A stretch of 64,000 nucleotides of DNA from Flavobacterium sp. MDT1-60. GTDB lineage: Bacteria > Bacteroidota > Bacteroidia > Flavobacteriales > Flavobacteriaceae. Position 1 is the stretch's first letter. Each line of letters opens with the position of its first letter. The notes below the pieces were generated by a model. The model was given only the letters and a program-made list of their open reading frames with translations, was not told the origin of the DNA and did not search any database. Positions 5,955-59,900 of the stretch are shown piece by piece. The position numbers and the translations under genes were made by a program. The stretch is from contig NZ_CP062159.1 of NCBI RefSeq assembly GCF_014844035.1, positions 4,030,001 through 4,094,000 of the forward strand. The letters run 5' to 3'.

Positions 5955-6410
5955 ATGTTAAAAACAGTCAATATACTTAATAAGAGAGCTCGTTTCGATT
6001 ACGAGATAATCGATACTTATACTGCCGGAATTGTTTTATCCGGAACAGAAATCAAATCTATACGCTTAGGGAAGGCTAATATCACTGAAAGCTTTTGTGA
6101 ATTTAATAATCTTGAGCTTTTTGCAATCAATACTTATATTGAAGAATATTCTTTTGGAAATCAATTCAATCATAAGTCAAGAAGTGAAAGAAAATTACTT
6201 TTGAATAAAAAGGAGCTAAAAAGCCTTCATAAAAGTGTACAGGCAAAAGGACTTACTATTGTCCCGCTAAAGTTATTTACAAATGAAAAAGGTCTTGCAA
6301 AATTGCAAATAGGCCTTTGTAAAGGAAAGAAAAACTACGACAAACGCGAATCTTTGAAAGAACAAGACACAAAACGTGACTTAGACCGAATTAAAAAAGC
6401 TTACAATTAA
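5955..6410 (+). CDS. smpB: SsrA-binding protein SmpB
   Basis: SmpB binds tmRNA and brings it to ribosomes stalled on messages without a stop codon, so that the nascent chain is tagged for degradation. The 151-residue length is typical. The N-terminal [10 protein letters not shown] strand, the GTEIKS(I)R motif near residues 30-36, the central [11 protein letters not shown] segment and the basic C-terminal tail ([10 protein letters not shown]...DRIKKAYN) are family hallmarks. The ATG at 5955 gives the canonical start. It is a monocistronic gene here; the ssrA gene itself is not in the window. Together with prfH at 17011-17700 it is the second ribosome-rescue gene in this segment. Confidence 0.97.
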
Positions 6411-16412: not shown

Positions 16413-16434
16413 AAAAATATTCACAAAAAATAAA

Positions 16435-16469
16435 AAACGGTGCAATCCAAACTTAGAATTGCACCGTTT
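16435..16469. terminator. Bidirectional terminator between thioesterase and TPR gene
   Basis: Perfect 12-bp stem AAACGGTGCAAT / ATTGCACCGTTT with an 11-base loop and A/T runs on both sides. It separates the plus-strand thioesterase from the end of the minus-strand rtcB-prfH-TPR operon. Confidence 0.88.
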
Positions 16470-16487
16470 CTGTTTTTAAATCAAAAA

Positions 16488-17024
16488 TCATTTTGATTTC
16501 TTTTTTGAATCTTTCTTTGATTCCTTCGGCTTCTTTTTCTTTTCAAGCAACTCAATTTTGCCTTTAATTCTTTTCTCTACTTCTGTAATATCAGAATCAA
16601 AAGCAAACTGTAAGGTTGTAAGTTTAGCATTTTTAATTTCCTTTAAGGCCTTTTTAAACTCCTGCTGAGCTTCAAGAAGAATCGCTTTCTTTACAAAAAT
16701 TTCAGATTTATTTATTCCTTTTATAGTTAAAGCGAAATCGATCAATTTTTGTGCTTCTTCGTAATCTTCATTCAAAATCAAAACATGCAAATAATAAGGA
16801 TATACTTCAAGTGCATGAATATTAATGGATAAAGCTTCTTGAAAATAGTTTTTAGCTTCTTCATAATTCCATAATTGCTCTGCCTGAATTCTTCCATACA
16901 AACACAAAACCATTGTATTTTTTGCATCATAAGAAAAAGCATAATCTAAGGATTCAATCGTTTCTTCAAGAGAGTACGGATAATTATCCAAAGCCTGAAA
17001 AAGGTATTTATCAATTGTTTTCAT
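16488..17024 (-). CDS. TPR-repeat protein encoded at the end of the rtcB-prfH operon
   Basis: Cytoplasmic helical protein of 178 residues, built of TPR-like hairpins (for example YEEAKNYFQEALSIN near residues 54-68 and YEEAQKLIDFAL near 88-99). It ends in a long lysine-rich tail (KKKKPKESKKDSKKKSK), which suggests contact with RNA or ribosomes. It has no signal peptide. Its start overlaps the end of prfH by 14 bases, the mark of translational coupling, and it is the last gene before the terminator. A role in the ribosome repair system is inferred only from this position. I do not know a named family for it; a general scaffold function is the alternative. Confidence 0.75.
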   Translation of the reverse strand: MKTIDKYLFQALDNYPYSLEETIESLDYAFSYDAKNTMVLCLYGRIQAEQLWNYEEAKNYFQEALSINIHALEVYPYYLHVLILNEDYEEAQKLIDFALTIKGINKSEIFVKKAILLEAQQEFKKALKEIKNAKLTTLQFAFDSDITEVEKRIKGKIELLEKKKKPKESKKDSKKKSK

Positions 17025-17700
17025 TTCGTAAATCTTGTTTTAATTTCTGACGAGTTCCTTTGTAACCTTTCTCTACTTTATTATTTTTGAAATCACTTCC
17101 GGTAAAAACCCTAACAGGATTTCCACGTTCAATATGCAGTTGATTTTCCCATTGTTGACCAACATGATTTTTAAGTTGCTGCAAAGTTTCGTCTTCTAAT
17201 TTTTTTAATAATCTTTCTGTTGCCCGTTTTTTGTTTTGGTGTTGCGAACGGCTGTCCATAGAAACAACTGCAATTCCTGTTGGAATATGCGTTGCCCGAA
17301 CCGCCGAACTCACTTTATTAACGTGTTGCCCACCGGCACCGGAACTCCGCATGGCCTGATACTGAATATCATTTTCTGAAACTGAACTATTTTTTTGTGG
17401 TTCAATCTCAAAAATACCAATAAACCAATTTTTACGTTTGTGCATTTTACGAAACGGACTCTGTCCAATCCATTGAATAGTTCCAATCCAGGAATTCGCA
17501 AATGTCGCTGCATTTTTCCCTTTTACAGAAATTGTTGCCGTTTCAACAGTTCCATTTTCAGAACCAACTTCTCTTTGTAATAACGTCGTTTCCAATTGCT
17601 GTTCCTGAGCTTCTTCCAACACTTTTTTAAGCACTTGGGCAACCACCCAAGTGCATTCCGCAGGTCCGCGACCTGCCGTTATCTGAATTATTTTTTCCAT
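17011..17700 (-). CDS. prfH: Peptide chain release factor-like protein PrfH
   Basis: Release factor homologue of 229 residues with the GGQ tripeptide at 123-125, in the context SSGAGGQHVNKVSSAVR. It lacks the codon-recognition domain of RF1/RF2 but has the N-terminal region typical of PrfH, including GTIQW and the SPFRKMHKRKNWFIG segment (81-95). Published work on PrfH shows that it releases peptides from ribosomes whose 16S rRNA is cut in the decoding centre, so that the adjacent RtcB can religate the RNA. Here rtcB lies 14 bases upstream, giving the expected pair. The gene overlaps the downstream TPR gene. Confidence in the assignment is high. Confidence 0.93.
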   Translation of the reverse strand: MEKIIQITAGRGPAECTWVVAQVLKKVLEEAQEQQLETTLLQREVGSENGTVETATISVKGKNAATFANSWIGTIQWIGQSPFRKMHKRKNWFIGIFEIEPQKNSSVSENDIQYQAMRSSGAGGQHVNKVSSAVRATHIPTGIAVVSMDSRSQHQNKKRATERLLKKLEDETLQQLKNHVGQQWENQLHIERGNPVRVFTGSDFKNNKVEKGYKGTRQKLKQDLRNENN

Positions 17701-17714
17701 TTTTAATTTTCTTT

Positions 17715-19106
17715 TTAACGATCCATTCGAACAATTCTCGGAGTAAAAGTTCCCAGAACTTCAACCAATTCCGTTTGATTTCCCATCACTTTTGTAATGT
17801 CTTTGTACGCCATCGGAGCTTCATCAATATTTCCTCCAATTAAAGTGACATCATTAGCTTTCAAAACCTTTTTAATTTCACTCTGTGTAAAAGTACTTTT
17901 GCATTTAGCTCTCGAAAATAATCGACCTGCACCGTGCGAAGCCGAATTTAAACTCTCCGCATTTCCTTTTCCTTTCACGATATAGCCGGGAGCCGTCATC
18001 GAACCGGGAATAATTCCCAATTGCCCTTCTGCAGCCGGAGTTGCGCCTTTTCTATGTACGATACATTCTTTTCCAATTACCATTTCTTTCCATGCAAAAT
18101 TGTGATGGTTTTCAATTGTTACCACTACTCTTTTTCCAATAGCTTTGGCAATTCTTCTGTGAATATCATCGTGACAGGCTTTTGCATATTCTCCTGCTAA
18201 ATTCATCGCCAGCCAATATTCCTGACCATCATGTGTATTTAAATCAAGCCAGGCTAAATGCTGCACATTTTTAGGTAACGGACATTGTTTTGTTGCCAGA
18301 TACGTGTAATGTTTCGCAATATTTGCACCCAAACCTCGCGATCCGCTATGCGAAAGAACAGCGAAATATTCACCAACTCCCAACTTCCATTCATTTTCAG
18401 GATTGTCAATTTTTGCAATTCCAAATTCAACAAAATGGTTTCCTCCGCCTGAACTTCCCAATTGCTTGTAAGCTTTTGGCAAAAGATTTTTTAACAACGG
18501 AATATCCTGAAATTCACTTTTGTAAAAAACTTCATGATCTACTCTTGAAGCATGAACTTCATTCATCCCGAATTTGGTATTATCTTTCAAAATTGCTTCT
18601 AACTGATGTTCTTTTCCTTTAAAATAGGATGCCGGCAAATCAAAAATCGAAAGGCTCATTCTACATCCGATATCAACTCCAACTCCATATGGTATAACAG
18701 CATTATCTGTTGCTAAAACACCGCCAATTGGTAATCCATAACCTGAATGTGCGTCTGGCATTAAAGCTCCTGCTATCGAAATTGGTAATTTTAAAGAATC
18801 ATACAACTGAAACTTAGCTTGTTGATCAATTTCATTTTCTCCAAATATGGTAAAAGGCGCTCGTGTATTTTTCAGCTGATGCATTCTTACATGAACTGGA
18901 TTTATCAAACCTTCAGCAACTTTACCCCAGGTTCCGTGTCCTTCATACTTTTCAGGATGAAGCAAAACTTCTTTGGCTTCTGTTAGAATAGATTCTTTTT
19001 TTTCTCTTTTTCTATATCTATTTATTTGCCCTAAGGCGATATTTATTGAATTGTTTTTCGGAAAGCCTAATTTAATCAGGTCTTTTCCGGATAATTTATT
19101 TCCCAT
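17715..19106 (-). CDS. rtcB: RtcB family RNA ligase (PrfH-associated)
   Basis: GTP- and manganese-dependent ligase joining 2',3'-cyclic phosphate or 3'-phosphate ends to 5'-OH ends. Metal-binding residues are visible as GVGVDIGCRM (Asp145, Cys148), GGGNHFVE (His224) and LSHSGSRG (His253). HRKGATPA holds the His that becomes guanylylated (His351), and SASHGAGR follows at 388-395. The length of 463 residues fits RtcB. It is the first gene of an operon with prfH, which points to 16S rRNA repair, not to tRNA splicing; archease is not encoded nearby. The ATG at 19106 is supported by the normal N-terminus. No clear promoter element is seen directly upstream. Confidence 0.95.
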   Translation of the reverse strand: MGNKLSGKDLIKLGFPKNNSINIALGQINRYRKREKKESILTEAKEVLLHPEKYEGHGTWGKVAEGLINPVHVRMHQLKNTRAPFTIFGENEIDQQAKFQLYDSLKLPISIAGALMPDAHSGYGLPIGGVLATDNAVIPYGVGVDIGCRMSLSIFDLPASYFKGKEHQLEAILKDNTKFGMNEVHASRVDHEVFYKSEFQDIPLLKNLLPKAYKQLGSSGGGNHFVEFGIAKIDNPENEWKLGVGEYFAVLSHSGSRGLGANIAKHYTYLATKQCPLPKNVQHLAWLDLNTHDGQEYWLAMNLAGEYAKACHDDIHRRIAKAIGKRVVVTIENHHNFAWKEMVIGKECIVHRKGATPAAEGQLGIIPGSMTAPGYIVKGKGNAESLNSASHGAGRLFSRAKCKSTFTQSEIKKVLKANDVTLIGGNIDEAPMAYKDITKVMGNQTELVEVLGTFTPRIVRMDR

Positions 19107-19250
19107 AAATTTTTATTAAATCTTGTTTGTTTTGCAAACGAATGTTTTCAAAATTGAATTTGAATAAAACATAAGTATGCGGAATCTTTTATCCGTTTTG
19201 GATAAATAATAAAATCAATTATTCGGGAAAATTTGAAGTGTCTAGAATAA

Positions 19251-19286
19251 AAAAAAGCCCGAAACTAAATGTCTTCGGGCTTTTTT
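19251..19286 (-). terminator. Strong terminator upstream of rtcB
   Basis: 13-bp stem AAAAAAGCCCGAA / TTCGGGCTTTTTT with a ten-base loop and T runs on both sides. It lies upstream of rtcB and about 340 bases past the response regulator, which has its own terminator. It therefore seems to end a separate small minus-strand transcript. Confidence 0.88.
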
Positions 19287-19306
19287 TTATATCTGAAAAT
19301 GAATTT

Positions 19307-19390
19307 CTAAGATTGAAATAAGCCACGAAGAAGCGATGCACCAAATCTGTTTGGTGTGAAGCTTTGTGATGTCGATGTAAGTACAAACAT
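19307..19390 (-). CDS. Candidate 27-residue small protein or leader peptide
   Basis: An ATG at 19390 opens a frame of 27 codons ending in TAG at 19307-19309, with a mixed basic and hydrophobic content (SFTPNRFGASLLRGLF is the core). A promoter-like -7 element lies about 70 bases upstream and a strong terminator begins 20 bases downstream, so a transcript of roughly 200 bases is likely. The frame contains a 7-bp hairpin (CACCAAA / TTTGGTG, 19339-19356). It may equally be an untranslated regulatory RNA, or a transposable fragment. I do not recognise a family. Confidence 0.35.
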   Translation of the reverse strand: MFVLTSTSQSFTPNRFGASLLRGLFQS

Positions 19391-19457
19391 TTCTCTTCGT
19401 TTTAAAGGGTTATTATTTTTTTCGTCTGCAAATATTCAGAATTGTTTTTTAATTTTC

Positions 19458-19465
19458 CAAATTTA
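19458..19465 (-). promoter_or_regulatory. -7 element of the candidate small transcript
   Basis: Minus strand reads TAAATTTG, matching TAnnTTTG. It would start transcription near 19450, leading through the 27-codon frame to the terminator at 19251-19286. Confidence 0.4.
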
Positions 19466-39191: not shown

Positions 39192-42100
39192 TTATCTCAT
39201 TATAGATAACCATCCTTTTTTAACCGTTCCATCTCCAATGTCTATCACATAAAAATAAGTACCTGTTGGCAACATATCTCCTCTATTTATAACTCCAGAT
39301 ACATTGGCAGTTCCGTTCCAATCATTTTCATAATGTTCTTTACTGTAAACTAATGATCCATATCTGTTATAAACTTTTAACTCATTATTTGGATACGATT
39401 CGATACAGTCAATTCTGAAAAGATCATTTGCTCCGTCATTGTTTGGAGTAAACTCATTATAAACTGTCAAACAAATTGGATCAACAGAAACTGAAGCTGA
39501 ATTGTTTGCTGCATCAACATCTAAAGGAGTTGAAATTTCAACAGTTGCAACACTAAGGTAATCACCACCAGGTAATACTTCTGCAACAATAGTAAGCGTA
39601 ACACTTTGACCAGCATTTAAAGTTGGAATTGTCCAAAGTGATGTTGTCGGATTATAGGTTCCAGCAGTTGTACTGCTGCTTACCAAATCATAACCGCTCG
39701 GTAATAAATCACTAACTACTGTATTTATAAAATTACCTTGTCCAACATTATTAACCGTTATCGTAAATGTTATCTGTTCTCCAAAATTTGGAGTCGGATT
39801 GCTCACAGTATTAGTAATTGTTAAATCAGAACAAGTAGCAACAGTAACATTCAACGTTTTAGTGGTAGTTTCGTCACAAGTATTAATGTATGTAACAGTA
39901 ACTTTACCCGGTCCGATATCAGACCATGAAATAGTCGCAGAACCATCAGCGGTTCCTCCGCCAGAAGTAATTGTTCCGTTCGTAACTGACCATACATAGT
40001 TTGATTTTCCGTTTGCGATCGAATAAGTTACTCCCTGGAAAACACATGGAGTATCATCTGTAGACGCAAGTTGTACCAAAGCATCGTTTTCGAAATTAAC
40101 TGTTATTCCTAATCTTGTAGCGCTTTCGCAGCCATTTGTAATATTATTAAGAGCACCTGCGTAGTAAGTTCCGGCTGTAAGCAGTGTATTTGCTGCTAAC
40201 GGGGTTCCACCAGTTGCTGAAGAATACCATACTACATTTGTTTCATTTACCAATATATTAGCAAGAGTTGGTAATTTTGACAAGCAGAATGTTTGTGTTG
40301 TTCTTGGTGTTGTTATAACACCCGGAATATTCACATTCACTAAAACTGCCAATCTTACTGGGTTCTCACAACCAATTGTACTTGAAACAGCTCCATAATA
40401 AGTTCCCGTAACCAAAGCTGTTGTTACTGGTAATGCTGTTTCGCCTGTTGCTGTGTTATACCAAACTACATTTGTTTGATTAACCTGGATATTAGCAACT
40501 GTTGGTGCATTTAACGAACAGAAGTTTTGAGTTGCATTATTTGTAGTTGGAGTTGCAGCAGGATTATTTATGTTTACTGTTACTTGCAAACGAACAGTAC
40601 TCTCACAACCTGTTACAGGATCTTTAATGGCTCCGTAATAAATTCCGTTTGTTAAGGCTGTTGTTGATGCAAGCGCTGTTCCGCCAGTTAAAGTGCTATA
40701 CCAAACTACATTTGCTTCATTTACCTGAATACTCGCAACCGTTGGTGTACTAGTAATACAAAAACTTTGAGAAGCATTTGTTGTTGTAGGTGTTGCCGGA
40801 TTAGTTAAGTTAATAGTAACTTGTAATCTGATTGCACTTTCACAATTTGTTACAGGATCTAAAATAGCTCCGTAATAAAGGCCATTTGCTAAAGCTGTTG
40901 TTACCGGAATTGCTGTTCCTCCTGTTTGAGTGCTAAACCAAATTACATTTGCTTCATTCACTTGGATATTAGCAATTGTTGGCGCATTAATTAAACAGAA
41001 ATCTTGTGTATTATCTGCCGTAGTTGGCGTTCCCGGATCAGTCACATTGATTGTAACTTGTAAGCGAACTGAGCTTTCACAACCTGTTACAGGATCTTTT
41101 ATAGCTCCATAATAAACTCCAGTTGTTAAAAGAGTGGTTGCAGCTAATGCTGTTCCGCCTGTTTGAGTGCTGTACCAAACTACATTTGTTTCATTAACCT
41201 GAATATTGGCAACTGTTCGCGCATTTACCAGACAGAAATCTTGTGTATTATCTGTAGTAGTTGGTGTCAATGGATCACTGATAGTAATTGTTACCTGCAA
41301 TCTTGTAGTGCTTTCACAATTTGTTACAGGATCTAAAATAGCACCATAATAAATACCATTTACTAAAGCTGTAGTTACCGGAATTACTGTTCCCCCTGTT
41401 TGAGTGCCGTACCAAACTACATTTGCTTCATTCACCTGAATATTAGCAACTGTTGGCACATTAACCAAACAGAAATCTTGCGTATTATCTGCTGTAGTTG
41501 GCGTTCCTGGATCAGTTACACTAATCGCAATGGCTAATCTACCATTACTCTCACAAGTAGTTGTTGGATCTTTTATCGCAGCATAATAGGTTCCGGTTGT
41601 AAGTGCTGTTGTAGATGAAATTAAATTTCCTCCGGTCAAAGCATCGTACCAAACGATATTCGCAACAATCGCTGGACTTACATTAATAGTTGCAAAAGTT
41701 GGTGCGTTTACCAAACAGAATTCCTGAGTAGTATCTGCAATTACCGGTGTTCCAGGATCAGTTACGCTGATTGCAATAGCCAACCTAACATTACTCTCGC
41801 AAGTAGTTATTGGATCATTTATCGCGGCATAATAGGTTCCGGTTGTAAGTGCTGCTGTGGAGGCAATCAAGTTTCCTCCGGTCAAAGCATCGTACCAAAC
41901 GATATTCGCAGCAATCGCTGGACTTACATTAATACTTGCAAAAGTTGGCGCGTTTACCAAACAGAATTCCTGAGTAGTATCTGCAATTACCGGTGTGCCA
42001 GGATCAGTTACGCTAATCGCAATCGCTAATCTAACATTACTCTCACAAGTAGTTGTCGGATCTTTTATCGCAGCATAATAGGTTCCGGTAGTTAGCGCTG

Positions 42101-45100
42101 TTGTAGATGGAATTAAATTTCCGCCTGTCAAAGCATCGTACCAAACGATATTCGCAGCAACTGCTGGACTTACATTAATAGTTGCAAAAGTTGGCGCATT
42201 TACCAAACAGAATTCCTGAGCTGTATCTGTAATTACCGGTGTTCCAGGATCAGTTACGCTAATCGCAATCGCTAATCTAACATTACTCTCACAAGTAGTT
42301 GTCGGATCTTTTATCGCGGCATAATAAGTGCCTGTTGTAAGTGCTGTTGTGGATGGAATCAAGTTTCCTCCGGTCAAGGCATCATACCAAACGATATTCG
42401 CAGCAACTGCTGGACTCACATTGATACTTGCAAAAGTTGGTGCGTTTACTAAACAGAATTCCTGAGTAGTATCTGCAATTACTGGCGTACCAGGATCAGT
42501 TACGCTGATTGCAATGGCTAATCTAACATTACTCTCGCAAGTAGTTGTCGGATCTTTTATTGCCGCATAATAAGTACCGGTAGTAAGTGCTGTTGTGGAT
42601 GGAATCAAGTTTCCTCCGGTCAAAGCATCATACCAAACGATATTGGCAGCAACCGCTGGACTTACATTGATACTTGCAAAAGTTGGTACATTTACCAAAC
42701 AAAACTCCTGAGCTGTATCTGTAATTACCGGTGTTCCCGGATCAGTTACGCTGATCGAAATCGCTAATCTGACATTACTCTCGCAAGTAGTTGTTGGATC
42801 TTTTATCGCGGCATAATAGGTTCCGGTAGTAAGTGTTGTTGTGGATGGAATCAAGTTTCCGCCTGTCAAGGCATCATACCAAACAATATTCGCAGCAACC
42901 GCTGGACTTACATTGATACTAGCAAAAGTTGGCGCATTTACTAAACAGAATTCCTGTGCAGTATCTGTAATTACCGGTGTGCCAGGATCAGTTACGCTAA
43001 TCGCAATAGCAAGTCTAACATTACTCTCACAAGTAGTTGTCGGATCTTTTATCGCAGCATAATAGGTTCCGGTTGTAAGTGCTGTTGTGGATGGAATTAA
43101 ATTTCCGCCTGTCAAAGCATCGTACCAAACGATATTTGTAGCTGGACTTACATTAATAGTTGCAAAAGTTGGTGCGTTAATCAAACAGAATTCCTGAGCG
43201 GTATCTGTAATTACTGGTGTTCCAGGATCAGTTACGCTAATCGCAATCGCTAATCTAACATTACTCTCGCAAGTAGTTATTGGATCTTTTATCGCAGCAT
43301 AATAGGTTCCGGTTGTAAGTGCTGTTGTGGATGGAATTAAATTTCCACCTGTCAAGGCATCGTACCAAACGATATTGGCAGCAACCGCTGGACTTACATT
43401 GATACTTGCAAAAGTTGGCGCATTTACCAAACAAAACTCCTGAGCTGTATCTGTAATTACCGGTGTGCCAGGATCAGTTACGCTAATGGCAATCGCTAAT
43501 CTGACATTACTCTCGCAAGTAGTTGTTGGATCTTTTATAGCTGCATAATAAGTGCCTGTTGTAAGTGCTGTAATAGATGGAATTAAATTTCCACCTGTCA
43601 AGGCATCGTACCAAACGATATTCGCAGCAACCGCTGGACTTACATTGATACTTGCAAAAGTTGGCGCATTTACCAAACAGAATTCCTGAGTAGTATCTGT
43701 AATTACTGGTGTACCAGGATCAGTTACACTAATCGCAATGGCTAGTCGTACTGCGCTTTCACAATTTGTAATTGGGTCTTTTATTGCCGCATAATAAGTG
43801 CCGGTAGTGAGTGCTGTTGTGGAGGCAATCAAGTTTCCTCCGGTCAAAGCATCATACCAAACAATATTGGCAGCAACCGCTGGACTTACATTGATACTTG
43901 CAAAAGTTGGTGCGTTTACCAAACAAAACTCCTGTGTAGTATCTGTAATTACTGGCGTGCCAGGATCGGTTATAATTACTGTAGCAGTTTGAAGTGTTCC
44001 TGCAATATTTTCACAAGTTGTATCACTTGAAACCCCAACATAATATGAAATAGGGCTCATTGCAAGTGTTATCCCTGTTGCTGTTAACACTCCTAGAGGA
44101 CTAATCGCATAAGTTATTCCACCAATAGTCGATCCATTTACAATAGGTTGTGTTTTATTGCTATCCAAGTACCAATAAAATACTGGATTTGTCAATAAAC
44201 TTGCTGTTGGTGTTAAGATTACAGGTAAATCATGACAAATAGATACATCAGAAACTGAAAGATCGTTTTGATCTGAAGGTCTTAATATTGTGAATGTAAT
44301 TTGTTTTCTATCTGCTTCTGCAGTTTCACAATAATTATCTCCACTAACACCTACAAAATAAGTATAGGTTCCCGGAATCAAACCATTTACAATTAATTGA
44401 TTGGTAATTTCACCTGCAATTAATTGACTAGTTGTTCCATTAAAACTATACCAGTGATAAACAGGGTTCGTTATAGCAGGAGTGCCGGTTAAAACTGTCG
44501 CTAAACTAACAGTACCTGTTGGTGCACAAATTGTAGTTGCTGTACCTCCATTTAAAGTAATATTAGCTAAAGCATTAACAGGGCTTGAAGATCTTACTTC
44601 AATAGTTACTTCTCCTCTTGCAAATGATTCACAACCGTAACGTACTGGCTGTACATAGTATTTATAGATTCCTGCTGGTAATGTAGCCGGAACTGTATAA
44701 GTAATACCACTTGCTACGACTGCTCCTCCTGTAGGCGCATCGTACCATAAATATGTTGAGCAAGCCTCTTCTGGTATCTGAAGCGTAACATCTGTTCCCG
44801 GACAAACCGTAACTTTGTTATCAGGATCTCCACCTATAACCGAGGTATTTGCTACTCGTTCAATAGTATGAACTCTTAAAAACTCTAATACGCCTGCAAC
44901 TCCTCCAAAACGAATTCTAACGCGATCGTATGATTCTGTTGGCGAAGATACCAGAGCCACTGCCATGGTATTTCCTGGTAATAATCTTAAACTCAATAAT
45001 GTACTTGTATTTTGAATTGGTGCACCAACAGCAACGTTACCCAAATAACGTTGAATAGTGAAACCAGTAAGTAAATTAACATCTAAAAGCACAGCTGGTT

Positions 45101-48100
45101 TCGAAATCACAATTCTTAAAGTATCACTTACAATAGATGGGGTTTTGAAATCTACCATTAAATCTGCTGCTGCAAGTGCACCTACGCCACTGTACATTGT
45201 TGCGAAAGTCGTTACATCGTTATCAGCAATATTCCATGCATCACTTACTCCTACTGTTGCGGTTAGTGCTCCTATAGGGAGTCCTAAATCTGTAGCTCCA
45301 TAAAATATATCCTGAATATCACCAGGTGTACAAGCTACAGTTGCAACTGATCTCTCATAATAAGCATCAAATACTTTGGTATTTTGTGCTACGCTTACAA
45401 GTGATGCGGACTGAATTCTGATTCCATCATAATCTTGTGGCCCTGCAGCATTTGCCGGAACAAAAGTGAATTCATATGTATTATCTCCTGATAATAAATT
45501 CAATAAGGATCCTGAAACAGATTGCATAGTTCCAATATCAACTCCGGCCTTGGTACCAATTACTGATAAATTTTGACCTAAAGCTACTCCACTGTATTCA
45601 GATCCCAACTTAATAGTTACCGGAGTTCCTTTTACAATATTTGCTGGCCATGTTAAATTTTGCCAAGTTGTACCAATTCCTAAAAGTCCAATACCAGTTG
45701 CAATAGTTGAATAGGTTTGTGGATTTCCATCAATCGCATTAGTTGCATTAATTACGCTGCCAGTAATAATTGAACCAGATGATTGGCCATTAGCATAAAC
45801 GCGTTCAGTTAAGGATTGACAATCATTAGGATTTCTAACATTTATAGAAAGCGTTCCTGTTCTGGAACAATTTCCCAGAGTAGCTACTACTGTGTACGTG
45901 TAGATACCAGGGGTACTAAGTGCCCCAGTAGTAAATGATGGTGAGCCTGTAAGTGCATTTCCCTGAGGGTCATACCATGCTATAGTACCATTTGATGTCG
46001 CATTTAATGTTACATCAGTTCCAACTGGCACTGATTGTGCAGGATCGACAGTCAAAGTTGGTAATTGATTAATAGTTACATTTATGGTCGCTATTGCTGA
46101 TGGACAATTCGATCCTGTAGCCTGAGCCTGAACCGAATAAACACCACTAGTCGTTATATTTGCGGCAGCTTCTGCCGTAATTACCACATTTGACGGATTA
46201 AAGAAAGTATATGTATTTACGGCAGTATCAAAACCTGTAATAGCATCTGCTAAATTAGCACTTCCACAACCTACTAAAGGCGTACCGATTACTGCTAAAG
46301 GTGTAACTGTTGGAAAATTAACTATTACTTCTTTTAATGTTCCGTTTACGTTTTCACAGGTACCTCCGTTAAGTACTGAAAGATAATAAGCATAAGGAGC
46401 ATTCAAAGCATTAAGTCCGCTAATAGTTAGTGCTCCTGTTGTACCGTCTTTAACATAAGTTACTCCGGCTATAGTTCCTGTATTAATTTCTTGTGTTTTA
46501 TTTTGATCTGTATAATATTTAAAAGTAGCCCCGGCTAAAGCAGAAGTTGGAGTCAATACAATGCCTCCGGCACAAGAAGCTGTCAAAGGACTTGCAATTG
46601 TAATATCCGTAGCTGTTGGAATTGATAATACATTAATCGTCACCGGCTGACGAACACTATTAACACAAGTTCCTCCGCGTGTTGCCTCTAAATAATAAGT
46701 TGTAGTTCCAGTTAATGGAAGAGTTGGACTAACAGCTACTAGACTTCCCCCGGTTGGAGCATCATACCATGTAAATGTTTCTGTTCCTGTTGAAGATGCA
46801 GCTAATGTTGCAGTTTGTCCTGCGCAAATTGGTGCAGCCGCTCCAGTTATTGTTGCATTTGGAAATCTATAAGAAGCTCCATAAATATTTAAAGTCGTCA
46901 ATAAAGTAGCGAGTCCTCCACCTATACGAATTTCAAGTTTATCGAATGCCGCTGTAGCAGCAAAACTAGCTTTAAATTTATTTCCTGATAATAACTGTAA
47001 GCTTAACAAATTATTAGTTAGCAAAAATCTGTCATTATTATAAGTTACTCCATTATAGGTTGCTAAACTAATTCCTCCTCCCAATAATGAAACATCGGCA
47101 AGTCCTCCAGGTAATTCTAATTCAATATCTATAATATCTCCCGCCTGACCCGGAGTTGGAAAAGTTAACTGCTGTTGTATATATGCGCCAGCTGCTGCAA
47201 CAGGAGTAAAAAGGGTTGCAGCTGTATTTATATTTCCATCAACAGAATTATTAGGATTAGTTGAAGTACATAACAAACATAACAAACCATCAGTGGATGT
47301 TGTTTGAAAATTTGGTTGTAAACAATTACTAATCGTATTAATTACTGTTACATTAATTACAGCTCTTGAACTACTCACGCAATTTGACAATAAATCTCTT
47401 GCCTCAACATAAAAAGTTTTATTTGCAGTTAAAACCGGTGTAGGTATATAAGTACTACTGCCAGTAGCTTGCAAAATAGTTCCTCCAGTTGGAGCATCAT
47501 ACCAAGTATACGCAAATCCAGGATTACTTGTAACTGCTAACATCACACTCTGACCTGACTGAATAATTACATTAGAAGATACAGGAACAGGGGCCGCAGG
47601 TCGTGGATTTACATTTACACTTACCGATGTACGCGACGCACTAAGACAACTTCCAATTACAGCCTCAACATAATAAGTTGTAGAAGCAGTTAGCGTTGGT
47701 GTTGAAAAAGAGGTACCTGTAAATACTAAGTTTCCGCCTGAAGCAGCATCATACCAATTATAGGTGGTACCTGCAACTGGTGACTGTACAGTTATCGTTG
47801 TTGCATCTCCATCACATATATTTAAAGGAGAAGCGACAACTGATGCTGGGGCTACCGGATTGTTGACGGTAACAAGGACTGGATTTCTTTCGCTATTCAC
47901 ACAACCATTACGAGTAACTTCTACATAATAAGTTGTATTAGCAGTCAACGCAGGAGTTGTATAAGCTGCTGTACTAACTAATAAATTTCCTCCTGTTAAT
48001 GCATCATACCATTTTATAGTTTCTCCTAAAGATGTATCAGCCGTTAATGTTGTTGTAAGTCCTCCACAAATAGTTGTGTTACCAGTTATAGTAGGTGCTT

Positions 48101-49901
48101 TATATCTGTAAGTTGCCTGAAAAATATCTACAGTTGTCAAAAGTGTTGCTAAGCCTCCTAATCGAATTTCGACACGATCAAAATTGGCTCCTGCAACTAC
48201 ACTCGCTCTAAAACGATTACCTGATAATAATTGTAAAGTTATTAGTGGATTATTAACCGATATTCTATCATTATTATAAGTTGCTCCATTATAAGTCGCC
48301 AAACTAACGGCACCTAATAATTGAACATCTGCAAGTCCACCTGGTAATTCTAATTCAACATCAACAATATCGCCTGCTTTACCAGGATTATTAAATTGTA
48401 AGGTCTGTTGAACCCATCCATTTATTAAGCCAACAGGAATGGTTAGTCTTGCTGCTGTTGCAGGATTTCCGTCAACAGAGTTATTAGGATTTGTACTACT
48501 ACATAATAAACATAAACCATTTTGAACTGTTTGTTGACTGCCTGCTTCTAAACAACCTCCTAAAGCCGATGGTATAACTGTTACTGTGACAGGAGCTCTT
48601 GTTGCACTTACACAGTTTCCTGCCGCACTCTGAGCCTCAACATAATAAGTTTTTGTAGCTGTTAAAATCGGAGTTGTATAAGTTGCCATATTTGTGGCAA
48701 TTGCTGTTCCTCCGGTTGCAACATCATACCAGTTTAATGTAACTCCTGCTTGAGAAGTTTCGGCATTTAATATAGCATTTTGTCCTGATTGAATAGTAAC
48801 ACTTTGCGTTAAAACCGTTGGTGCAGCTGGAACAGCATTCGAAGTTACATCGACCTGAGTTCTTGTAGGACTCAAACAGCTTCCTATAACAGCCTCAACA
48901 TAAAAACTAGTTGTTCCTAAAGGGACAGTTGGAGAATAAGTGTCGCCCGATGCCAATACAGGACCTCCGGTTGCTCCACTATACCAATTATAAGTAGTTC
49001 CTGGTATCGGATTAACGACCGATAATGTAGTTTGCTGAGTTGCACCAGTTGAACAAATTGAAGTTCCGGATGTACTAATCGCAGGCGCAATAGGGTTTGA
49101 TACATTAACAACAACTGGTACACGTTCATTACCCTCACAACCTGCTGCTCTTGTAACACCTATATAATAAGTTGTGTTTGCAGTTAAAACTGGAGTTGTA
49201 TACGAATTTGTAGTAGCTAAAGCTGTAGTTGAAGTTGGCGAACTATACCACGCTACAGTTGTTCCGGATGCAGGAGTTGCAGTTAATGTGGTAGAATTTC
49301 CAGAACAAATTGTTTGATTTAAACCTCCTGTTACCGTTGGTGCAGCAAATTCTAAACGAACATCATAAATTCTTAAATCAGTCAGTACACTTACGAGTCC
49401 ACCTAACTGTATTTGAACCTGATTAGTATCACCTGTCAAAGTATACCTTAATACTCCAATAGTGTTTCCCGGTAATAATGACAGATTAAGCAAAGGATTG
49501 TTTATCGCCACTGCTGATCCCGAATTCGCACTATTAAGTTTCGGCTGAATTGTGCCTGTAGATAATAATGACAGATTAAGTAACCCTGCACCACTACCAA
49601 TATACAAAACAATTTGATCGCCTGCCTTTGCTGTTTGGTTAAGAACCAAAGTTTCCTGAGCAGAACATGCCAAGCCGACGACTGTACTCAATGTTGTAAA
49701 TGTCGTTAAGCCTGCATTATCGTAGGCTGCCGTGGGATTTGTTACACTTGAACCAATGCAAATACCGGAAACATTATTCGTATTTGATACTGGTCTACAA
49801 AAAGTTTGTGCAAAGTTTTTATTACACAAAAGCAATAAAAACACCAAACTTAACAATCTCTTTTTTAGAATGAGATCATAAAAAGTAAATTTTTTTTTCA
49901 T
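39192..49901 (-). CDS. Giant T9SS-secreted adhesin with Ig-like repeats and CHU_C domain
   Basis: Secreted surface protein of 3569 residues. Signal peptide 1-32 (ending NKNFAQ). The N-terminal half holds discoidin-like modules that open with cysteine-rich CLLC and SVDG segments, alternating with Ig-like modules carrying the WYD..TGG motif. Then come ten almost identical modules of about 82 residues (about 1978-2795), six related but diverged ones, a DUF11-type domain (about 3350-3475) and the C-terminal gliding-motility-associated CHU_C type B sorting domain beginning YNEFTPNNDGANDLF. The last domain directs export by the type IX system. Each module contains two conserved cysteines. Function is probably adhesion to surfaces or cells; the ligand is unknown. 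It leads an operon with SprF- and OmpA-type genes. Confidence 0.93.
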   Translation of the reverse strand: MKKKFTFYDLILKKRLLSLVFLLLLCNKNFAQTFCRPVSNTNNVSGICIGSSVTNPTAAYDNAGLTTFTTLSTVVGLACSAQETLVLNQTAKAGDQIVLYIGSGAGLLNLSLLSTGTIQPKLNSANSGSAVAINNPLLNLSLLPGNTIGVLRYTLTGDTNQVQIQLGGLVSVLTDLRIYDVRLEFAAPTVTGGLNQTICSGNSTTLTATPASGTTVAWYSSPTSTTALATTNSYTTPVLTANTTYYIGVTRAAGCEGNERVPVVVNVSNPIAPAISTSGTSICSTGATQQTTLSVVNPIPGTTYNWYSGATGGPVLASGDTYSPTVPLGTTSFYVEAVIGSCLSPTRTQVDVTSNAVPAAPTVLTQSVTIQSGQNAILNAETSQAGVTLNWYDVATGGTAIATNMATYTTPILTATKTYYVEAQSAAGNCVSATRAPVTVTVIPSALGGCLEAGSQQTVQNGLCLLCSSTNPNNSVDGNPATAARLTIPVGLINGWVQQTLQFNNPGKAGDIVDVELELPGGLADVQLLGAVSLATYNGATYNNDRISVNNPLITLQLLSGNRFRASVVAGANFDRVEIRLGGLATLLTTVDIFQATYRYKAPTITGNTTICGGLTTTLTADTSLGETIKWYDALTGGNLLVSTAAYTTPALTANTTYYVEVTRNGCVNSERNPVLVTVNNPVAPASVVASPLNICDGDATTITVQSPVAGTTYNWYDAASGGNLVFTGTSFSTPTLTASTTYYVEAVIGSCLSASRTSVSVNVNPRPAAPVPVSSNVIIQSGQSVMLAVTSNPGFAYTWYDAPTGGTILQATGSSTYIPTPVLTANKTFYVEARDLLSNCVSSSRAVINVTVINTISNCLQPNFQTTSTDGLLCLLCTSTNPNNSVDGNINTAATLFTPVAAAGAYIQQQLTFPTPGQAGDIIDIELELPGGLADVSLLGGGISLATYNGVTYNNDRFLLTNNLLSLQLLSGNKFKASFAATAAFDKLEIRIGGGLATLLTTLNIYGASYRFPNATITGAAAPICAGQTATLAASSTGTETFTWYDAPTGGSLVAVSPTLPLTGTTTYYLEATRGGTCVNSVRQPVTINVLSIPTATDITIASPLTASCAGGIVLTPTSALAGATFKYYTDQNKTQEINTGTIAGVTYVKDGTTGALTISGLNALNAPYAYYLSVLNGGTCENVNGTLKEVIVNFPTVTPLAVIGTPLVGCGSANLADAITGFDTAVNTYTFFNPSNVVITAEAAANITTSGVYSVQAQATGSNCPSAIATINVTINQLPTLTVDPAQSVPVGTDVTLNATSNGTIAWYDPQGNALTGSPSFTTGALSTPGIYTYTVVATLGNCSRTGTLSINVRNPNDCQSLTERVYANGQSSGSIITGSVINATNAIDGNPQTYSTIATGIGLLGIGTTWQNLTWPANIVKGTPVTIKLGSEYSGVALGQNLSVIGTKAGVDIGTMQSVSGSLLNLLSGDNTYEFTFVPANAAGPQDYDGIRIQSASLVSVAQNTKVFDAYYERSVATVACTPGDIQDIFYGATDLGLPIGALTATVGVSDAWNIADNDVTTFATMYSGVGALAAADLMVDFKTPSIVSDTLRIVISKPAVLLDVNLLTGFTIQRYLGNVAVGAPIQNTSTLLSLRLLPGNTMAVALVSSPTESYDRVRIRFGGVAGVLEFLRVHTIERVANTSVIGGDPDNKVTVCPGTDVTLQIPEEACSTYLWYDAPTGGAVVASGITYTVPATLPAGIYKYYVQPVRYGCESFARGEVTIEVRSSSPVNALANITLNGGTATTICAPTGTVSLATVLTGTPAITNPVYHWYSFNGTTSQLIAGEITNQLIVNGLIPGTYTYFVGVSGDNYCETAEADRKQITFTILRPSDQNDLSVSDVSICHDLPVILTPTASLLTNPVFYWYLDSNKTQPIVNGSTIGGITYAISPLGVLTATGITLAMSPISYYVGVSSDTTCENIAGTLQTATVIITDPGTPVITDTTQEFCLVNAPTFASINVSPAVAANIVWYDALTGGNLIASTTALTTGTYYAAIKDPITNCESAVRLAIAISVTDPGTPVITDTTQEFCLVNAPTFASINVSPAVAANIVWYDALTGGNLIPSITALTTGTYYAAIKDPTTTCESNVRLAIAISVTDPGTPVITDTAQEFCLVNAPTFASINVSPAVAANIVWYDALTGGNLIPSTTALTTGTYYAAIKDPITTCESNVRLAIAISVTDPGTPVITDTAQEFCLINAPTFATINVSPATNIVWYDALTGGNLIPSTTALTTGTYYAAIKDPTTTCESNVRLAIAISVTDPGTPVITDTAQEFCLVNAPTFASINVSPAVAANIVWYDALTGGNLIPSTTTLTTGTYYAAIKDPTTTCESNVRLAISISVTDPGTPVITDTAQEFCLVNVPTFASINVSPAVAANIVWYDALTGGNLIPSTTALTTGTYYAAIKDPTTTCESNVRLAIAISVTDPGTPVIADTTQEFCLVNAPTFASINVSPAVAANIVWYDALTGGNLIPSTTALTTGTYYAAIKDPTTTCESNVRLAIAISVTDPGTPVITDTAQEFCLVNAPTFATINVSPAVAANIVWYDALTGGNLIPSTTALTTGTYYAAIKDPTTTCESNVRLAIAISVTDPGTPVIADTTQEFCLVNAPTFASINVSPAIAANIVWYDALTGGNLIASTAALTTGTYYAAINDPITTCESNVRLAIAISVTDPGTPVIADTTQEFCLVNAPTFATINVSPAIVANIVWYDALTGGNLISSTTALTTGTYYAAIKDPTTTCESNGRLAIAISVTDPGTPTTADNTQDFCLVNVPTVANIQVNEANVVWYGTQTGGTVIPVTTALVNGIYYGAILDPVTNCESTTRLQVTITISDPLTPTTTDNTQDFCLVNARTVANIQVNETNVVWYSTQTGGTALAATTLLTTGVYYGAIKDPVTGCESSVRLQVTINVTDPGTPTTADNTQDFCLINAPTIANIQVNEANVIWFSTQTGGTAIPVTTALANGLYYGAILDPVTNCESAIRLQVTINLTNPATPTTTNASQSFCITSTPTVASIQVNEANVVWYSTLTGGTALASTTALTNGIYYGAIKDPVTGCESTVRLQVTVNINNPAATPTTNNATQNFCSLNAPTVANIQVNQTNVVWYNTATGETALPVTTALVTGTYYGAVSSTIGCENPVRLAVLVNVNIPGVITTPRTTQTFCLSKLPTLANILVNETNVVWYSSATGGTPLAANTLLTAGTYYAGALNNITNGCESATRLGITVNFENDALVQLASTDDTPCVFQGVTYSIANGKSNYVWSVTNGTITSGGGTADGSATISWSDIGPGKVTVTYINTCDETTTKTLNVTVATCSDLTITNTVSNPTPNFGEQITFTITVNNVGQGNFINTVVSDLLPSGYDLVSSSTTAGTYNPTTSLWTIPTLNAGQSVTLTIVAEVLPGGDYLSVATVEISTPLDVDAANNSASVSVDPICLTVYNEFTPNNDGANDLFRIDCIESYPNNELKVYNRYGSLVYSKEHYENDWNGTANVSGVINRGDMLPTGTYFYVIDIGDGTVKKGWLSIMR
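40092..41516 (-). repeat. Six diverged Ig-like modules of the adhesin
   Basis: Within the adhesin gene, 1425 bases encode six modules of about 79 residues. They share the pattern FC....PT.A.I.VN...VVWY and G.YY.A with the near-identical block next to it, but differ at many positions. They appear to be older copies of the same unit. Confidence 0.8.
41517..43970 (-). repeat. Ten near-identical 82-residue repeats of the adhesin
   Basis: 2454 bases encode ten units in head-to-tail order: nine of 246 bases and one of 240 bases, the fourth from the N-terminal side lacking two residues before NIVWYD. Units begin TDPGTPVI and end RLAIAISV. Differences between copies are mostly single bases. Such a block is prone to unequal recombination, and short-read assemblies often collapse it, so the copy number here should be regarded as provisional. 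Confidence 0.9.
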
Positions 49902-59495: not shown

Positions 59496-59900
59496 TTAAT
59501 TTCTTTCAAACCAATTTTCCATTCGAATTCCATCCAAAAGTTTAAAATCCTTAATATTATCGGTAACTAGAATTAATTGGTTTTCTATTGCTGTAACACC
59601 AATCAAAAGATCAAACTCATCATGCATTGGTTTTCCAATTTTTCTAAGTCGTACTTTTTCTATAGCATATCTTTTTATAGAACCAAAAATTGGAATAATT
59701 GTTAATCCTTTTAAAAATATATCAACTGCTTTATTTGACTTTACAGGATTATCACTATTTTCAGCTCCAAAACGAAGTTCTGCAACAGTAATTTCAGAAA
59801 TATAACACTTTTCCAATCCTATTTCTTTTACCATTTTATCCAGATTGAGTCTTCCTCTTAAAAAGAAAACGCAAATACTTGTGTCCAGTAAATACCCCAT
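59496..59900 (-). CDS. VapC-type PIN-domain toxin
   Basis: PIN-domain ribonuclease of 134 residues, typical of the VapC toxins that cut tRNA or rRNA. Acidic catalytic residues are visible: Asp6 in LLDTSI, Glu41 in TVAELRFG, Asp97 in HDEFDLLIG and Asp114 in LVTDN. The start codon overlaps the stop of the upstream partner gene by one base, the usual arrangement for toxin-antitoxin pairs. No host gene is broken by the insertion. It is a probable toxin; its RNA target cannot be inferred. Confidence 0.9.
   Translation of the reverse strand: MGYLLDTSICVFFLRGRLNLDKMVKEIGLEKCYISEITVAELRFGAENSDNPVKSNKAVDIFLKGLTIIPIFGSIKRYAIEKVRLRKIGKPMHDEFDLLIGVTAIENQLILVTDNIKDFKLLDGIRMENWFERN

Follow-up and report, generated by a model that had tools for sequence, protein, structure and literature searches.

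This study concerns an operon of three genes in Flavobacterium sp. MDT1-60, which code for the RNA ligase RtcB, peptide chain release factor H (PrfH) and a tetratricopeptide repeat (TPR) protein, together with the leader element that precedes them. We analyzed a stretch of 64,000 nucleotides (hereafter, the window; contig NZ_CP062159.1, positions 4,030,001 to 4,094,000) belonging to a 5.56-Mb single-contig genome, and all coordinates below are those of the window. The three genes lie on the minus strand in one operon (19106-16488), with rtcB directly 5' of prfH on the same strand at a gap of 14 bases and with prfH overlapping the TPR gene by 14 bases. Because this gene order recurs in relatives, the operon is not a chance arrangement. 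The original prediction for the locus had described an RNA ligase gene and a PrfH gene 14 bases apart in one operon with a terminator, a GGQ motif at PrfH residues 123-125 and an smpB gene in the same window, and all of these features are real: the motif reads G123 G124 Q125, and SmpB is found at 5955-6410 (PF01668, 185 bits). Its range, 16488..19106, omitted an upstream leader and putative attenuator at 19249-19462. The operon and its leader comprise the following features:

19429..19462 (approximate), minus strand: promoter-like site for the leader transcript, TTTG ... AATATTTG, of the Bacteroidota sigma-A type
19395..19399, minus strand: region 1, CGAAG, just 5' of the leader ATG; can pair with region 2
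19307..19390, minus strand: leader open reading frame (ORF), 27 codons, MFVLTSTSQSFTPNRFGASLLRGLFQS
19322..19330, minus strand: region 2, CUUCGUGGC, codons Leu-Arg-Gly, the putative antiterminator arm
19273..19280, minus strand: region 3, GCCCGAAG, which forms the 5' side of the terminator and can also pair with region 2
19257..19264, minus strand: region 4, UUUCGGGC, 3' arm of the terminator
19249..19288, minus strand: leader terminator hairpin with U run, present in the minimum-free-energy fold of the leader
17715..19106, minus strand: rtcB, RNA ligase, 463 residues, of a Bacteroidota lineage and not RtcB2
17011..17700, minus strand: prfH, peptide chain release factor H, 229 residues, with a basic C-terminal tail
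16488..17024, minus strand: gene for the TPR protein, 178 residues, with a lysine-rich C-terminus
16433..16471, minus strand: operon terminator 3' of the TPR gene, a 16-pair stem followed by a T-rich tail

Conservation and pairing of the leader

The 314-nt stretch upstream of rtcB folds better than its shuffles (z = -6.2). Our terminator scans omitted the window's leader hairpin, apparently since its stem runs through the U run, and Rfam gave no match at its gathering score (sub-threshold leader matches at the attenuator were not counted). The same arrangement of leader and terminator is found 5' of the first gene in related operons (L and G numbers below are our labels for loci and genomes). 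A rule for leader plus terminator returned 53 leaders, in a list that also contains a few unrelated rows as well as nested starts and genomes that appear repeatedly. With the window's own leader, which we added by hand, the set comes to 54, and the leader ORF measures 24-29 codons across it. When a gene for a charged protein comes first in the operon, the leader precedes that gene, and it precedes TPR genes in L071, L228, L231 and L232 (for L232, as a pattern match in G825). Outside the loci that carry a PcfJ-like gene (PcfJ type, described below), 35 of 37 Flavobacteriales operon loci have the core CTTC[AG]...CCG[AG]AG 5' of their first gene, and 28 of the 37 have the pattern in full; upstream of unlinked rtcB it is found in 0 of 12 loci. 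A pattern search of 40 genomes found a match at a leader in 17 of them, and once in the window's own genome; matches elsewhere were no more frequent than for a reversed control pattern (12 versus 16).

The position of region 2 is held relative to the end of the leader ORF: it begins 18-27 nt before the stop codon's end in all 53 measured leaders (24 nt in 43 of them), within the footprint of a ribosome. Measured from the ATG, its position ranges from 54 to 66. Across 35 aligned leaders of the 54, 273 of 280 possible pairs form between regions 2 and 3, with both-sided changes in 19 cells at two pairs, and regions 3 and 4 pair in 245 of 245 cells. For percent paired, for both-sided cells and for the covariation score, 0 of 500 shuffles were as high, and slid versions of the region 2:3 helix reach 55% at most. 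The codon after Arg is for Gly in some leaders and for Asp in others, and the terminator arm changes with it (GGC:GCC, GGU:ACC, GAC:GUC, GAU:AUC). Among 16 distinct arm pairs, 23 of 32 variable places are Watson-Crick, a value equaled or exceeded in 179 of 100,000 shuffles. The region 2:3 pairing is kept by compensatory changes between families.

These parts could also belong to an independent small gene, or a small RNA, that ends in a terminator of its own, in which case the rtcB promoter would lie downstream and the match between leader codons and terminator arm would be incidental. Such a terminator would end a short transcript, and hairpins of the GCCCGAAG...CTTCGGGC form are common Flavobacterium terminators. 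We consider this unlikely: codons and terminator arm co-vary between families, region 2 stays at a constrained distance from the stop codon, the peptide itself is weakly conserved, and the element is retained where the operon begins with another gene (charged protein, TPR). It is considerably less probable still that the leader is an amino-acid attenuator, sensing one scarce amino acid instead of ailing ribosomes. Leader-peptide attenuation before amino-acid operons has been reported in Flavobacterium psychrophilum, according to the available text of PMC9723704. However, the longest run of a single residue is two or fewer in 53 of our 54 leaders and three in the other, and Flavobacterium and Weeksellaceae-type leaders share, by eye, no codon cluster outside region 2.

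The proposed attenuator and its fold model

We favor, with a probability of roughly 0.68, the reading that this is an rRNA repair operon, directed at cuts in the 16S decoding center, under a transcription attenuator that responds to the ability of ribosomes to translate. Transcription would start some 30-40 bases 5' of the 27-codon leader ORF. A ribosome that reaches the end of the leader would cover region 2, leaving regions 3 and 4 to pair, and the resulting terminator would stop transcription before rtcB (OFF). Were a ribosome to stall within about the first 15 codons, or were the leader not translated, regions 2 and 3 would pair, the terminator would be blocked and rtcB-prfH-TPR would be transcribed (ON). 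A ribosome cut at the A site would be expected to place initiator tRNA still but to fail at decoding codon 2, which would give the ON state. Judging from relatives, PrfH would then enter the A site of the cut 70S ribosome and free the peptide, after which the subunits would part and RtcB would join the 5'-OH end to the 2',3'-cyclic phosphate again. The TPR protein would probably act as a scaffold, likelier for the ligase than for PrfH. The transcription start, termination, antitermination and inducing signal in this scheme are those that the sequence and the fold model suggest.

The putative start is taken from promoter-like sites scored with the -7 box TAnnTTTG, as given in the available text of PMC9723704. 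The best such site ends 36-44 bases 5' of the ATG in 23 of 34 loci, with a mean score of 9.06 of 10 versus 7.11 in letter shuffles. In the window, TTTG occurs at about -71 and -42 from the leader ATG and the best-scoring site lies elsewhere (ending at -67), so the choice of promoter rests on the relatives. A sigma-70 scan gave fewer sites than shuffles (4 versus 11.9).

The switch itself was modelled as an equilibrium fold with fixed ribosome masks, in 17 leaders. For the window, with the P site at codons 1-15 the region 2:3 helix has a probability of 0.86-1.0; this falls to 0.63 at codon 16 and to 0 at codons 17-26, and is 0.14 at codon 27. A rise in read-through when translation of the leader stalls is thus predicted by the masked-fold model.

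Several observations weigh against this reading. Within the model, two of the 17 leaders (L263, L090) depart at several stall positions, with region 2:3 near 0, and the helix returns at the last codon in L080 (0.69) and L214 (0.73). As the full-length leader reaches its minimum free energy with the terminator formed, regions 2 and 3 would have to pair before region 4 is made for the ON state to arise. Pairing of region 1 with region 2 is weak in the window (probability 0.01), and an untranslated leader is therefore also predicted to be ON. In the alignment, region 2:3 mismatches occur in L066, L067, L096, L090, L217, L184 and L231; the number of pairs with a both-sided change does not beat shuffles (223 of 500 as high), nor does the number of further pair types (499 of 500), and the shuffles ignore the relatedness of the leaders. 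The leader peptide is weakly conserved: of the single-base differences between codons, 422 of 1115 and 410 of 903 are synonymous versus an expected share of 0.25, the pairs compared being non-independent and the third-position excess small. Weak conservation of the peptide is expected if translation, and not the peptide, is what counts.

The distribution of the leader also has gaps that count against the reading. The pattern stands upstream of 0 of 5 PrfH operons outside Flavobacteriales (L081, L091, L093-L095) and of 0 of 6 PcfJ-type loci; L218, with a broken prfH, has no pattern within 520 bases, L210 ends at a contig end, and the 40-genome search missed the variant leaders of G123, G624, G782 and G885. 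Other RtcB-PrfH operons do not all share this leader form. In favor of the attenuator, five PcfJ-type operons (L061, L062, L063, L065, L227) have another leader, in which the late codons GAACCG(G) match, by eye, the operon's own terminator arm (C)CGGTTC. Likewise, the Fulvivirga rtcB-prfH operon (L091, L206) has a 16-residue leader ORF in which GACCGGG matches, again by eye, the arm CCCGGTC of its terminator. Short ORFs 5' of rtcB in L094 and L095 had no terminator by the rule.

The ligase, PrfH and the TPR protein

The window ligase matches PF01139 at 277.6 bits (cut-off 27), and its Asp/Cys, GNHF, HSGSRG and HGAGR blocks, which we take to be catalytic (metal and guanylylation residues), align with those of 1uc2. 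Against the RtcB2 model TIGR03073 it scores 133.7 bits, about half the cut-off of 271.8, and is therefore not RtcB2. The window's own genome holds a second rtcB elsewhere, 49% identical to this one. Trees were built from 63 rows and, once 12 close rows were dropped, from 51; in them the PrfH-linked ligases of Bacteroidota group with unlinked Bacteroidota RtcB, and the PrfH-linked ligases of Escherichia coli, alphaproteobacteria, actinobacteria and Desulfobulbaceae stand apart from them. An approximately unbiased (AU) test rejects a single clade of all PrfH-linked ligases (log-likelihood difference 52.1, p-AU 2.3e-6). The test set 32 rows against 19, with the orphan rtcB of L069 and L070 counted inside the group, and the program warns of long branches; it was run after a quick tree had been seen, on a group defined by linkage and not by the tree. 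On this sequence evidence, prfH is linked to two RtcB lineages.

Several loci show the ligase gene in other company. L069 has an operon-type rtcB and the leader without prfH or TPR, as does L070, which has a charged gene as well. Decaying copies of the operon are seen in L073, with several broken frames, and in L218, with one stop in prfH. On a Shinella plasmid (L086, 1-2499), two different RtcB genes stand side by side ahead of prfH.

PrfH is a clear member of its family, scoring 245.4 bits against the equivalog model TIGR03072 (cut-off 166.65). It lacks the N-terminal domain 1, the alignment of its 229 residues to E. coli RF2 starting at RF2 residue 130. The nearest solved chain by sequence is 9mor (E = 5e-77), followed by 7sa4. 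A fold search with our PrfH model (mean predicted local distance difference test score, pLDDT, of 80) placed 9mor, 9mq4 and 7sa4 as the top three, each titled as a damaged 70S ribosome with PrfH bound. The window PrfH is 53-55% identical to the chains in 9mor and 9mq4 (231 residues) and shares their long form; the chain in 7sa4 (204 residues) is not of that form. By analogy with 9mor and 9mq4, the window PrfH is predicted to act on cut and not on intact 70S ribosomes. Genomes with a PrfH above the cut-off number 41 of 150 in the genus, 81 of 395 in the order and 28 of 395 in the phylum. A PADLOC search gave one weak match, JAB to PrfH (E = 0.009). PrfH matches also occur in phage records, mostly in unannotated records or under the name prfB (20 of 69 listed).

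The repair of 16S rRNA claimed by the original prediction is strengthened by PrfH's family membership and by its solved relatives on damaged 70S ribosomes. The ligase does not fit as well: placement of RtcB outside the repair clade had been named as evidence against repair, and this RtcB falls below the TIGR03073 cut-off and outside the RtcB2 clade (AU p = 2.3e-6). This reads as a different ligase lineage paired with PrfH rather than as lost function, and since the ligase is not RtcB2, the argument for its substrate by analogy becomes weaker, a further point against our reading. It also raises the possibility that the operon repairs other RNAs, such as tRNA or mRNA cut by host RNases, with PrfH freeing ribosomes stalled in other ways and with decoding-center cuts not the main substrate. 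Besides the grouping of the ligase with unlinked Bacteroidota RtcB, this would agree with the finding of E3-type nuclease PF09000 in 0 of 150 genus genomes, in a search where no positive control rang. We nonetheless give it a low probability, as close relatives of PrfH have been solved on damaged 70S ribosomes and the linkage of this ligase lineage to prfH persists through divergence. Five 16S places were found, and the two copies read among them carry the letters of the cut site (AA, the cut, GTC). Repair of rRNA is the best reading of the operon, and systems of this kind, TPR gene included, have already been published.

The TPR protein is modelled as a confident TPR fold (pLDDT 90) with a lysine-rich tail; a fold search with the model returned general TPR matches only, and most of its named sequence matches are from Flavobacterium. 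Of the 395 order genomes, 81 have PrfH (E <= 1e-45) and 97 have the TPR family (E <= 1e-15); 78 have both. For 18 loci from the 19 genomes with TPR and no PrfH (G807 was left out), rtcB lies within the 9-kb locus in 4. Five genomes of the 150 sampled in the genus, and G480, have the order PcfJ-like gene, rtcB, TPR without prfH (one of the five genus loci, L065, has a broken rtcB), and three further loci that lack PrfH (L228, L232, L242) have a TPR gene close to rtcB. Also in the genus sample, G107 has a TPR gene on its own and G066 a TPR fragment. We infer from its recurrence beside rtcB without prfH that the TPR protein serves the ligase, a conclusion held with moderate confidence as TPR also stands alone; it is probably a scaffold, likelier for the ligase than for PrfH. 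As side observations, the PcfJ-type operons L061-L065 and L227 are in Flavobacterium-group genomes, with PF14284 in both loci tested (L061, L064), and a weak TPR match (31 bits) beside rtcB in Fulvivirga L205 was not counted.

An alternative role for the TPR protein, as the partner of PrfH, was set aside because TPR is found beside rtcB without prfH and also alone. We likewise dropped the claim that the basic PrfH tail (23-29 residues) docks the TPR protein. Tail and TPR gene at first co-occurred in every locus with intact PrfH; further loci then gave exceptions, with TPR without tail in L207 and L208, tail without TPR in L216, and a PrfH of tailed length (232 residues) without TPR in L245 and L246. 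On a tree, each trait changes twice, too few for a test.

The operon is flanked by an acyl-ACP thioesterase and a two-component system. Elsewhere, the window codes for a 3569-residue protein (39192-49901) in which 21 Ig_7 stretches occur along with a CHU_C type IX secretion domain, and for a PIN-domain protein of 134 residues (59496-59900).

Relation to known systems

The closest described counterpart is the RtcB2-PrfH system of E. coli ATCC 25922, where the available text of PMC9223846 reports that the rtcB2-prfH operon protects from colicin E3. As far as that text describes it, the two systems share gene order, PrfH family, RtcB fold and likely job; the window ligase, in contrast, is of another RtcB lineage and carries about 80-90 additional residues at its N-terminus, and its operon has a basic PrfH tail, a TPR gene and a Flavobacteriales-type leader. 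TPR, nucleotidyltransferase (NTase), zinc-ribbon and charged proteins have already been described as RFH-RtcB accessories in PMC6514570, in the portion available. Likely counterparts occur in our relatives, namely NTase-like (by a weak Pfam match), Cys-rich zinc-ribbon-like (by eye) and charged proteins, so that the TPR, NTase-like, zinc-ribbon-like and charged neighbors are common to both sets. The section of that paper on accessory genes, in contrast, names no leader; our analysis adds to its set TPR beside rtcB without prfH, and the PcfJ-like gene. A search for literature on PcfJ together with RtcB gave a sole match, unrelated by its title.

Trp-type leader-peptide attenuators combine a leader ORF with alternative antiterminator and terminator helices. 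The window leader shares both of these; in contrast to the trp type, it has no run of marker codons and is predicted to read a general failure of translation. This logic has a precedent in Pseudomonas aeruginosa, where, as described in the available text of PMC12057347 and PMC3516279, the rtcB-like armZ (PA5471) adjoins prfH (PA5470) and stands under a 13-residue leader peptide, PA5471.1; the genes are induced by ribosome-targeting drugs, and attenuation by impaired ribosomes has been proposed. Both systems thus have, on these descriptions, an RtcB-like gene by prfH and a short leader peptide with terminators. They differ in that the P. aeruginosa leader lies about 250 bp upstream and ArmZ is also the MexZ anti-repressor, and the likening of the two leaders is by description. 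The open-licence literature searched, in the text available, reports no leader for this operon in Bacteroidota, and rtcB is absent from the available main text of the F. psychrophilum attenuation paper (PMC9723704).

The kind of repair system is known; what is new here is the ligase lineage and the control. With prfH linked to two RtcB lineages, decoding-center repair was probably assembled more than once, or the ligase changed. We lean slightly toward the view that the Flavobacteriales attenuator is dedicated to this operon and senses ribosomes that start but do not elongate, as would those with a cut decoding center, and that it arose separately from the armZ-prfH leader, which would make attenuation by ailing ribosomes a recurrent solution for rRNA repair. 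The proposed switch offers a testable answer to how a cell could sense cut ribosomes, in which the damaged machine itself would set the RNA switch, and the short DNA element may be used to seek further members of the regulon.

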